From a virus, in the IMG/VR virus record IMGVR_UViG_3300048588_000233, positions 1 to 45,167 of that record: a DNA stretch of 45,167 nt; one strand, 5' to 3'. Position numbers and translations under genes: made by a program. Below are positions 5,905-26,659 of this stretch, in pieces; position 1 is the first letter of the stretch; each line of letters starts with the position of its first letter. Under the pieces are notes generated by a model. It was not told where the DNA came from, did no database searches, and saw only the letters and a list, made by a program, of their open reading frames with translations.

Positions 5905-7078
5905 TTATTTGTTGTTCATCGACCAATGGGATAATATTTGTTTCAAAACCAAGATATTTAAGTGTTCTTTCAATGGTTTTTCGCTCTTTTTGGGTCTGCT
6001 CTTGGTAGAAAAGCTTCATTTCTCGGTAGGTGTCGCCCGAAGTTCCGAACAAAGCACCTTCTCCAGCGTAAATCAAAGGCTCTGGCAGGTTGTTTGCAGC
6101 CCCTAAAATGTTTCTTCTTATACGCTTGTCCTGTTCGACAAACATTTTATCATCTATTTGGGATTTAATCTGCTCAATTTTTAGGACGTTATCCAAGCTG
6201 TCTGCTTGCTCTGTTCTTAAATGAAGTAAACTGCCTACGTTTTCCGCTCCCAATAACTTACCTAAGTCCTCCGAAACTGTATCTTCTTCTCCCTCATCCA
6301 ATCCTTGTGTTATCGCGATGACCTTTCCTAAAAAGCCTGTTCGCATTTCACGGTTTACGTAAAGAGAAAACCTAAACTCACTGTCCGCATCATTGAAAAC
6401 ACTATCAAATTTTGAAAGGGCGTACTTATATTTAGGGGTCATATTCAAATAGAACACTTGACCTCTGTAATGTTTTACCATTTGTTCAACGGTAACTTCA
6501 TCGTCCTTTTTAAGTTTCAATCCCACTCTTGCATCTGCCTTCATTTGTGCAATTACAATTTCAGGATTTGGATTGTATGGGTAGTACCAAGTTTCGTTTT
6601 CCGTTCCCCTTGACTTATAGAAATTGTTCTTTACTTGGTAATCCTTATAATATATTTTTCCCTTATACTCGTTGTCATCTTCCTTAGATATACGTGTATT
6701 GGAATAATCCAAAAGGTCAAGTTTTTGTTGGAATGGTTTTTCTGAAACTGGATCAAAACCATAACCAATCCAAATAAAAGAACCATTCTGCGTAGATACA
6801 TCTTCAGCGACCATATCCACGACATCGGAAAGCATATAGCCTTTTTTGGAGTTTACAAGCACATCATTTGTAACACCCTCACCACTAATAAACCGTTGCA
6901 TTATATCAGTGGCTCTTGTTGCGGTAGGGGAGTTGTTGATTGCTCGTTCTATCTCATAAGGATATAGGTTGTTCTCTCCGTTTAAATAGATGTTGTTATT
7001 TTTGTCATCTACTTTAATTTCACGGCTGAACAACTCAACAAGCGTGGCTCTTACCTTTCCGATAATGTCTTTAGCCAT
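5873..7078 (-). CDS. Portal protein
   Basis: The 401-aa protein forms the dodecameric DNA channel at the capsid vertex. It shows portal-type features: an ATRATDIMQRFISGEG helix early on, a central alpha/beta wing, and a C-terminal stem/crown with RRNILGAANNLPEPLIY followed by YREMKLFYQEQTQKERKTIE. Length is in the range of small siphophage portals. It lies downstream of the capsid gene rather than next to the terminase, which is unusual. Confidence comes from the C-terminal pattern and from the absence of any other portal-like ORF. Confidence 0.75.
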   Translation of the reverse strand: MAKDIIGKVRATLVELFSREIKVDDKNNNIYLNGENNLYPYEIERAINNSPTATRATDIMQRFISGEGVTNDVLVNSKKGYMLSDVVDMVAEDVSTQNGSFIWIGYGFDPVSEKPFQQKLDLLDYSNTRISKEDDNEYKGKIYYKDYQVKNNFYKSRGTENETWYYPYNPNPEIVIAQMKADARVGLKLKKDDEVTVEQMVKHYRGQVFYLNMTPKYKYALSKFDSVFNDADSEFRFSLYVNREMRTGFLGKVIAITQGLDEGEEDTVSEDLGKLLGAENVGSLLHLRTEQADSLDNVLKIEQIKSQIDDKMFVEQDKRIRRNILGAANNLPEPLIYAGEGALFGTSGDTYREMKLFYQEQTQKERKTIERTLKYLGFETNIIPLVDEQQIIEQNATTNEN

Positions 7079-9337: not shown

Positions 9338-10477
9338 TTATTTTCGTGTTTTAGTTAGGTTTGTAATTCCTGCCGCTATTCGGTTTTCCTTAGCTGGCGT
9401 GGCTGTGGGGTTTTGTTTCGCTTTCGCTGGCTGTGCTGGCGTGTGTTCCGTTTCGATTGCCTTAATAGCTGCGATTGCTTTTTTGTAAGAAGAATTGCTT
9501 TCTTTTAAAGCGGTAACTTCTCCCGTGAGGTCTATTACCTTTCCATCATACTCTGCAAGTTGTGTTTTAAGGTTTTCGTTCTCTTCTTTCAAGGCTTGCA
9601 TTTCCTCGCTGTCGGCTTCTTCTTCGGCTGCCACATCTGCTTCTTTAATTTCGAGTAGCACACCATTTTCAAATACATAGGTTTCAACCAGTGCAGGGTC
9701 GTTTTCGCTTGGTACGGAATATTCGCCATTGGCTGCCGTTCCATCGTAATTTGCTTTTGCGCCAAGTTCAATAGTAGCGGAATCCTCCAACTCGTAGAAG
9801 TCCAACTCTTTGCCCTCTGCGTCAAAAACAATCTTGTTAGTGGGGATTTTGTGGGATTTAAGCACATCCATTATTTTGGATATGATTCCCTTTTCGTTTT
9901 TGCTCATATTAATTTTGGGTTTAAGATTAGGTTTGAAGTACGCCACCACTTCGGGCGCATTTATTTTTTCATTTGCAAAGCCAAGTTTATAGGCTTCATC
10001 TGCATTTAGGAATGTTTCCTTTTGGAGTAGTGGCAATATTTCGCTTTCTGAAAGTCCTGCGGTTTCATTGTAGAACTTCACGACACGCTTTTCAATGTCC
10101 TTAATGTATTTGGAGTAGTTTTCGATTTCGTCTGAATTTCCCTCAACGCCCCCGCTTGGAAGGTGTATCATAAATTCAGTGTTTGGCTTCAATACCCTTG
10201 TATTTCCTGCCATAAAAATCACAGTCGCTATACTCGCAACCATTCCCTGTCCAATTGTCTTGATTGGCTTTCCTAAAGACTTTAAGTAATCGTATATTTC
10301 AAAGCCTACATCTACATATCCACCTTGTGAATTGATGTAAACATTGAAACTTTCGGCTTTAGGTTGGTTCTTTACTTGCAGAATAACGTCCAAAAGCTCA
10401 ACGCCTTTCTCCACAACCGCCCCATTTTCATCAAGGAAAGTTCCGATAACACCGTTTATATAGATATTGCCATTCAT
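9338..10477 (-). CDS. ClpP-type prohead protease fused to a scaffold-like domain
   Basis: Residues 1 to about 175 are a ClpP/S14-fold serine protease: Ser82 in GMVASIATVIFMAG and His105 in EFMIHLPSGG have ClpP-like spacing. From about residue 190 the protein changes to an acidic, coiled-coil, low-complexity region (EEEADSEEMQALKEENENLKT) ending in a basic tail, as expected for a scaffold that is digested during capsid maturation. An in-frame ATG at 9907 (MSKNEKG, residue 191) could give a free scaffold, as for lambda C/Nu3. It ends one base before the capsid gene. Confidence 0.85.
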   Translation of the reverse strand: MNGNIYINGVIGTFLDENGAVVEKGVELLDVILQVKNQPKAESFNVYINSQGGYVDVGFEIYDYLKSLGKPIKTIGQGMVASIATVIFMAGNTRVLKPNTEFMIHLPSGGVEGNSDEIENYSKYIKDIEKRVVKFYNETAGLSESEILPLLQKETFLNADEAYKLGFANEKINAPEVVAYFKPNLKPKINMSKNEKGIISKIMDVLKSHKIPTNKIVFDAEGKELDFYELEDSATIELGAKANYDGTAANGEYSVPSENDPALVETYVFENGVLLEIKEADVAAEEEADSEEMQALKEENENLKTQLAEYDGKVIDLTGEVTALKESNSSYKKAIAAIKAIETEHTPAQPAKAKQNPTATPAKENRIAAGITNLTKTRK

Positions 10478-25830: not shown

Positions 25831-25897
25831 AATTAAATTTTTTAGTTAAACGTTTTATAACAGTCAATAAAAATCATTGAAACGCTTTTTATTTTGG

Positions 25898-26058
25898 TGT
25901 TCACGGGCATAACCTCAACAAAGGCAAGTGTCAACTCGTTGCACCGTTACCACTTGCCTTTGCATCGGATACGTAAATCCGCAATTTGCGAAAAGCAAAA
26001 GGCTCAAGATTTCCTAATGCCCGTGAACGAATGGGGAGTATTCGATTTAAAAAGCCCT
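25898..26058. ncRNA. Structured GC-richer block A (candidate ncRNA or recombination site)
   Basis: No ORF of note. A 12-bp perfect inverted repeat (GTTCACGGGCAT 25899-25910, ATGCCCGTGAAC 26017-26028) encloses a second 12-bp hairpin (CAAAGGCAAGTG 25919-25930, CACTTGCCTTTG 25951-25962). To its right lie AACGAATGGGGAGTAT (26026-26041) and CGATTTAAAAAGCCCT (26043-26058), both found again in inverse orientation in block B. It is clearly less AT-rich than its surroundings. The strand and nature of any transcript are unknown. Confidence 0.55.
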
Positions 26059-26082
26059 TTCCCCTCGCTATCGCTCACGGAT

Positions 26083-26352
26083 TTAATTAATTCTATGAAA
26101 TACGTGCCAAACAAGTCCATCACAAAAAGCAGTTCCTAAATATTCTCTTTTAGTTGATTCAATTTCATAAATAGGGTTTCCAGTTCCGTGAACTTCAATT
26201 TCAATTTCTTCATTTTGATTTTCAGTATCAACAAGAGCCCATATAACAATTGAATTAAATTGATTTTTAACTACTAAAATTTGGAATCCTTTAGGTATTA
26301 GCAATAATTGTGAGGTTTTAGTTTTAATGGGATATTTAAAAATTGTTTTCAT
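26083..26352 (-). CDS. DUF7352-like protein flanked by structured blocks
   Basis: The 89-aa protein matches the pattern of the small phage family DUF7352: MKTIFKYPI, LLIPKGFQILVVKNQ, VIWALVDTE, EVHGTGNPI and a C-terminal WHVFH. No enzymatic role is known to me. The gene sits alone between block A and block B, which share inverted motifs, so it looks like a cassette cargo. Confidence 0.68.
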   Translation of the reverse strand: MKTIFKYPIKTKTSQLLLIPKGFQILVVKNQFNSIVIWALVDTENQNEEIEIEVHGTGNPIYEIESTKREYLGTAFCDGLVWHVFHRIN

Positions 26353-26381
26353 AATCTATAATTTAATCAGTTAATATTTAG

Positions 26382-26529
26382 TTTGTTAAGGTTACGACCC
26401 GCGAACACGGATTATGTATCATTGCCTACGGCAGGGCTTTTTAAATCGTTCATTGCCTTTCGTGTTCCCGAAACAGCCGAAAAAGGCTATTTCTACACAC
26501 ACGGCAACGAAACATACTCCCCATTCGTT
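26382..26529. ncRNA. Structured GC-richer block B (candidate ncRNA or recombination site)
   Basis: It contains the inverse of block A motifs: AGGGCTTTTTAAATCG (26433-26448) and ATACTCCCCATTCGTT (26514-26529). It also holds a diverged inverse copy of block A's left end (26382-26408, with the reverse strand reading GTGTTCGCGGG then TAACCTTAACAAA). A compound hairpin is formed by TCATTGCC (26450-26457) with GGCAACGA (26503-26510), enclosing AGCC/GGCT at 26475-26488. It lies directly upstream of the DUF7352 gene. Confidence 0.55.
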
Positions 26530-26659
26530 ATAAACCATTCTCATTACGTTTCACATCCTTTATCCGTTCTTCAAGTTCCTGTTTTTGAACAGTCATTTCA
26601 TAAATAGCTTTTTCCATTATAGATAAACTGCTTTGTAGTATTTCGATTGTTTCTTTCAT
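26528..26659 (-). CDS. Small coiled-coil protein, 43 aa
   Basis: The ORF (MKETIEILQSSLSIMEKAIY... ending KRNENGL) is a single helical, coiled-coil-like segment. Its ATG overlaps the previous stop as ATGA, which supports translation. It ends at the edge of block B. Confidence 0.5.
   Translation of the reverse strand: MKETIEILQSSLSIMEKAIYEMTVQKQELEERIKDVKRNENGL

Follow-up and report, generated by a model that had tools for sequence, protein, structure and literature searches.

A probable integron-like mobile gene cassette in phages of Flavobacteriia

Phage morons are extra genes lying between phage genes with flanking sequences of their own, a promoter and a terminator. The p-dif modules of Acinetobacter plasmids, which are XerC/XerD modules, have sites of ~28 bp in which both the XerC and the XerD arm are conserved and the spacer is 6 bp. 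Moreover, two kinds of element, the IS1111-attC elements and the group IIC-attC introns, target attC-like hairpins. The attC sites of integrons are strand-biased (PMC8946536). Clusters of attC sites are also present in phages, including Polaribacter phage P12002L, one site of which was recombined by IntI1 (Qi et al. 2023, PMC9892861). Here we describe a locus with likenesses to several of these systems. It lies in a 45-kb IMG/VR record (IMGVR_UViG_3300048588_000233), analysed over all 45,167 nucleotides and hereafter called the window, which carries phage portal, tape measure and terminase genes and whose best matches are phages of Flavobacteriia. We hypothesise, with a probability of roughly 60%, that positions 25899-26529 form a mobile cassette, integron-like in kind, which flavobacterial phages carry and a recombinase moves at GTT/AAC.

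The element proper (25899-26529) has two folded blocks, A (25899-26059) and B (26381-26529). Most of block A is a 130-bp hairpin unit without a gene, U5 (25899-26028, plus strand), which runs from GTT to AAC and has a 12-bp basal stem (25899-25910 with 26017-26028) and an inner 12-bp stem (25919-25930 with 25951-25962), both perfect and nested. It overlaps by three bases, AAC, with a large palindrome of 504 bp, U4 (26026-26529, minus strand), which runs from AAC to GTT and has arms of 16 bp with, in the loop between them, hairpin B together with the cargo gene. The outer arm x, AACGAATGGGGAGTAT (26026-26041, plus), is inverted at 26514-26529 as arm x', ATACTCCCCATTCGTT (plus), the outer right end of the element. 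Arm y, CGATTTAAAAAGCCCT (26043-26058, plus), is identical in every copy of block A and pairs with arm y', AGGGCTTTTTAAATCG (26433-26448, plus). The two perfect 16-bp inverted repeats, spanning 26026-26529 and 26043-26448, are thus nested. Between y' and x' lies the block B inner hairpin (26449-26511, minus), which folds on the strand of the genes. Motif z, GTTCGCGGGTCGTAACCTTAACAAAC (26381-26406, minus), repeats the outer end of block A in diverged form, with GTTCrCGGG..TAACCTyAACAAA at 25899-25922 (plus) and at 26381-26406 (minus). In the L018 phage contig group, the CACGGG/CACAGG difference in this motif follows the one seen in block A. The cargo gene (26083-26352, minus) encodes an 89-aa protein of the domain-of-unknown-function family DUF7352 (PF24043; phrog_3848). 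Homologues of this protein occur in 36 phage records from many hosts, a collection in which the element DNA has no match; the cargo therefore appears to be an ordinary phage gene that was picked up.

A preliminary description of this DNA had reported nested hairpins, shared inverted 16-mers and a common end motif, and every one of these was found in place. It was likewise correct that the blocks differ in composition from their surroundings: blocks A and B have a GC content of 45% and 46%, respectively, compared with 36% for the window and 27-30% for the flanks, and only ~2.5% of window positions reach the GC of the blocks. A perfect inverted repeat with an arm of at least 16 within 700 bp occurred in 3/200 second-order Markov genomes, and the window has two, nested. 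Moreover, there are 4 GC-balanced repeats with arms of at least 12 in the window, against a mean of 0.5 in second-order Markov genomes.

Searches of 2.9 million IMG/VR viral contigs with three independent exact patterns returned the same four contigs each time, and looser and gapped relaxed pattern scans of viral contigs yielded no further member. The 16-mer scans mostly gave chance matches, which lay in unrelated contigs. Blocks A and B recur only jointly, at 78-99% identity, in the phage contig groups L005/L010, L017 and L018. The element is known from four phage sequence groups, at least three of them unrelated, and since L005 and L010 hold one and the same copy there are four distinct copies including the window. 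One co-directional gene always lies between the blocks, in the sense order B, gene, A, and the cargo is an unrelated gene every time: DUF7352 in the window and, in the three other groups, one gene each for an uncharacterised 126-aa protein, an uncharacterised 80-aa protein and YopX. The neighbourhood varies too: terL precedes the element in L018, a recombinase gene follows it in L017, and small genes surround it in the window and L005/L010. Beyond A and B, the compared stretches of L017, L018 and the window have no DNA in common bar one hairpin in the L017 and L018 arrays described below. Joint recurrence of both blocks in other phages around other genes excludes chance.

The folds are conserved as well. 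Among the four copies of block A, 3 base pairs are changed on both sides, and 97% of cells are paired compared with 28-44% when slid. The block B inner hairpin has 6 pairs with changes on both sides, and its covariation score was reached by 0/500 shuffles. Between the blocks, pair 5 of arms x-x' has changed in both its bases in L017 and L018, being T-A there instead of A-T. With just four distinct copies, this covariation rests on few events. The preliminary description would have fallen back on chance or decayed host sequence had there been neither homologues beside other genes nor covariation; homologues were found in three further phage contig groups, and covariation within each block as well as between the two. 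The reading that these are relics of decayed host integron cassette DNA carried passively and without present activity in the phage is very improbable: it would fit the irregular site consensus and the single copy in the window, a record that may be a fragment and in which no XerA/IntI-like recombinase was found, but the level of identity between different phages (78-99%), the compensatory changes and the intact cargo genes point to maintenance.

In each copy, homology stops at GTT on both outer edges. The edges read GGT-GTT-CACGGG and CCATTC-GTT-ATAAACC in the window, ACTA-GTT-CACGGG and CATAC-GTT-AGAGGTC in L017, and GAGC-GTT-CACAGG and CATAC-GTT-CTAACC in L018. Moreover, the far flanks are complementary across 680-780 bp, as TTTATAAC/GTTATAAA in the window and TTATAAC/GTTATAA in L005/L010. 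In the window, the R''-like end TTTATAAC (25854-25861, plus) belongs to a flanking attC-like hairpin and is complementary across the whole insertion to the R'-like half GTTATAAA (26527-26534, plus), at whose GTT the homology to other copies ends. The body of this hairpin (25862-25901, plus) pairs AATAAAAA (25866-25873) with TTTTTATT (25886-25893), has unpaired spacers and finishes with GTT at 25899-25901; the fold of 25854-25901 is weak (about -4 kcal/mol) and the spacers were judged by eye. L005/L010 match the window at 97.5% over 25848-26088, this hairpin included, and keep its flank arrangement with other neighbouring genes. The complementary flanks fit, without proving, entry into an attC-like site at its GTT. 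The window element, a lone copy, probably entered a short attC-like hairpin (25854-25901 plus 26527-26534) in this way. A true empty site was not found via the TerL relatives of L018; the nearest of these (69% protein identity) are without the element and have other genes behind terL, so that the junction is unreadable there. In L018 itself, where the element lies behind terL, its right flank is a 31-bp hairpin, GTTCTAACC..GGTTAGAAC (L018:12101-12131), a minimal GTT..AAC unit.

Two of the phages carry the element within arrays. That of L017 (L060:7644-12646; IMGVR_UViG_2675903128_000002) is a 5-kb chain of abutting inverted repeats in which neighbours overlap by 3-9 bases containing GTT or AAC, compared with 1-3 chained pairs per 20 kb by chance. 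Its GTT..AAC units mostly contain small ORFs (27-115 aa) and its AAC..GTT units are mostly hairpins of 164-245 bp, one of which (164 bp) is present in three identical copies. Around ten small phage genes lie in it, including those for a MazG-like nucleotide pyrophosphohydrolase, DUF7768 and a 27-aa membrane peptide. The chain closes with the A/B element as a pair of units, and ~47 bp separate it from the start codon of a tyrosine recombinase of 270 aa. A similar array in L018 (L062:5928-9656; IMGVR_UViG_3300030392_002189) lies beside a 281-aa recombinase, and the two arrays have an 89-bp hairpin in common (92%). Within L062:5083-9656 a DMP19-like cassette gene (6030-6677) points the other way. 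The final AAC of each array stands ~47 bp in L017 and ~75 bp in L018 ahead of the recombinase ATG, and a CACC-rich stretch that is loosely alike in the two would be a candidate for an attI site. Cellulophaga phages phi10:1 and phiST and Polaribacter phage Leef_1, which have genes in common with the L017 phage, served as negative controls, and no GTT/AAC chains were found in the stretches read.

The two recombinases are 34% identical, and each has a SAM_4 N-domain and a phage integrase domain. They score best to the XerA/'integron integrase' model NF040815, at 173 and 197 bits under its cutoff of 220, and fall far short of the IntI cutoffs (118 and 145 versus 265 bits for the integron-integrase model). 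The IntI4 or IntI model is matched by both in two pieces. From the YLF to the HxLRH motif there are just ~38-41 residues, leaving no room for the IntI additional domain. Directly behind the L017 recombinase gene (L060:13578-13970) there are dense GTTCCAAC/GTTGGAAC inverted repeats, possibly binding sites or the phage attachment site.

The locus could also be a transposase-less insertion element that targets attC-like hairpins, carries a passenger gene inside and has U5 and arm x' as its own ends. Such an element would have a fixed two-ended structure with variable cargo, would sit at the GTT of attC-like sites as it does in the window and L005/L010, and could occur both within arrays (L017, L018) and alone. 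However, the outermost ends (left GTTCACGGGC, right CATTCGTT) do not form an inverted repeat, searches matched neither a transposase nor an intron or RNA family, and the U5 arms follow the GTT/AAC palindrome rule of the other units in the L017 array; we consider this reading unlikely. Mobile insertion cassettes and MITE-like elements resemble the locus in having a passenger gene between structured inverted repeats and no transposase, and differ in that the units here chain through GTT/AAC and the outer ends are not inverted repeats. Comparison of GTTCACGGGC with CATTCGTT did not give the terminal inverted repeats with target duplication of a transposon, MITE or mobile insertion cassette, and this class was rejected. 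Group I or II introns and retrons were also dropped: Rfam gave no match, and the genes of the element include neither a reverse transcriptase nor a homing nuclease.

Folding depends on the strand. Block B folds clearly better on the gene strand, and the gene-sense strand gives the better DNA fold in 10/11 distinct units. A pair of structured RNAs, forming the 5' and 3' UTR of the cargo mRNA and regulating or protecting the message, would not explain why the edges are at GTT, why unrelated palindromes are arrayed with these same junctions or why recombinases lie next to them, even if the blocks were spread by homologous recombination with A and B as homology arms. The sense strand does keep GU pairs besides folding better, the element is always co-directional with the operon with B upstream and A downstream of the cargo, and x-x' and y-y' are complementary over a long range, all as RNAs of this kind might be. 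Nonetheless, Rfam 15 gave no match over the whole window at the gathering threshold and only a chance match (E 1.3) in the element region at E <= 5, and we regard the RNA pair as quite improbable. A tRNA scan found none.

The suggestion in the preliminary description of a cassette with attC-like recombination sites is largely borne out by four genes in four contig groups, the GTT edges, and the arrays with their recombinases. As in integron cassettes and CALINs (attC clusters without integrase), there are palindromic sites with an AAC/GTT base, small genes between sites in arrays, a tyrosine recombinase adjoining the arrays (L017 and L018) and strand-biased folding. Different genes with like sites, as in an integron array, are found in L017 and L018; the window has a single unit. 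Unlike in integrons, the L017 and L018 recombinases are without the IntI extra domain, the arms vary freely, and genes mostly point towards the recombinase. The R boxes RYYYAAC/GTTRRRY are not kept, GTT/AAC being present at every junction with CACG, ATAA, AGAG, CTAA or ATGC as the next bases. With neither the IntI domain nor GTTRRRY boxes found, we describe the element as integron-like and stop short of classing it as an integron. Counting against even this looser reading, the stems at the U5/U4 junctions are continuous without an unpaired spacer (of the attC traits, spacers are seen, by eye, only in hairpin 25854-25901), and the gene lies inside an attC-phase palindrome and not between attC sites. 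The locus resembles p-dif modules in its small gene modules, its sites in alternating orientation and a related Xer-type recombinase; however, the units have hairpins of 130-250 bp and the arms differ from site to site. A p-dif module was rejected because only GTT, and no 28-bp site, is common to the sites. It is also like a moron in being an extra co-directional gene with its own flanks inserted between phage genes, but here the flanks are conserved 150-160 bp structures of recombination type.

Phage-borne attC clusters are already known. An attC-like hairpin of P12002L, CTAACGGCTACGGCTA..TAGCCATTGTTAG (L120:30008-30057), lies between two methyltransferase genes and may or may not be the site tested with IntI1. 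The L017 array has exactly the half-sites of this hairpin: the same 16-mer and 12-mer are found at L060:9340 and 9619 (unit 9340-9630) with a 70-aa gene between them. Thus, a gene inside the palindrome occurs in at least one other unit.

From the recurrence, cargo change, GTT edges, covariation, arrays and neighbouring recombinases, which are features read in sequence, we infer movement by recombination at GTT, the acting enzyme, a single-stranded substrate and the direction. We propose that the integron-like cassette would be a pair of palindromes that abut each other: U5 (GTT-hairpin A-AAC) is one, and U4 (AAC-arms, hairpin B and cargo gene-GTT) is the other. A XerA/IntI-like tyrosine recombinase would exchange strands at the GTT/AAC junctions of hairpins in folded single-stranded DNA, and whole cassettes would in this way enter or leave a resident site. 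An enzyme of this kind, for which some of these phages and many flavobacterial hosts have a gene, may come from another phage or from the host. In the window, two phage genes would have had a short attC-like hairpin between them, and the copy would have come to lie at the GTT of this hairpin, its cargo pointing along the phage operon. A change of cargo with both blocks kept may result from exchange in the loop or from homologous recombination between blocks.

Recombinase homologues were found in at least 58/399 Flavobacteriales genomes (E <= 1e-40). At ~12/30 of the top loci the contig ends 50-245 bp past the recombinase stop codon, as repeats would cause. In the host loci (L073-L102, and especially L112:7300-9150), a ATAAGTAAGTTA-like motif follows many of the recombinase stop codons, and contigs frequently stop directly after this motif. 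At L112, genes downstream of the recombinase are set apart by two attC-like hairpins, and repeats and a short-arm array lie beside one chromosomal homologue; no long-arm chains were found in 15-kb stretches around the chromosomal homologues. This looks like a widespread integron-like platform of Flavobacteriales chromosomes, with an integrase lacking the IntI domain. The element itself was not recovered outside the IMG/VR contigs: a block A covariance model, run with a positive control, found no copy in the 399 Flavobacteriales genomes, an 18-base exact word found none in 85,000 species genomes, and the element DNA had no similarity in INPHARED phages or PLSDB plasmids. Five matches to genome contigs were chance, lying inside coding sequence.

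We tentatively extend the cassette reading, at somewhat less than even odds, to an integron variant proper to flavobacterial phages, with a Xer-like integrase that lacks the IntI domain, sites defined by GTT alone and 'inside-out' cassettes, in which the recombining hairpin encloses the gene, traded among unrelated phages and fed by host chromosomal arrays of the same recombinase family. If right, marine and freshwater flavobacterial phages would assemble accessory genes as cassettes, and phage gene mosaicism would be due in part to site-specific recombination and not only to homologous exchange. There would also be a further group of integron-like recombinases, expected to escape searches keyed on the IntI domain, and a form of cassette with the gene inside the recombination hairpin. 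The small phage genes of the arrays (MazG-like, YopX, DUF7352, DUF7768 and others) would be traded between phages and so would probably be useful in infection.
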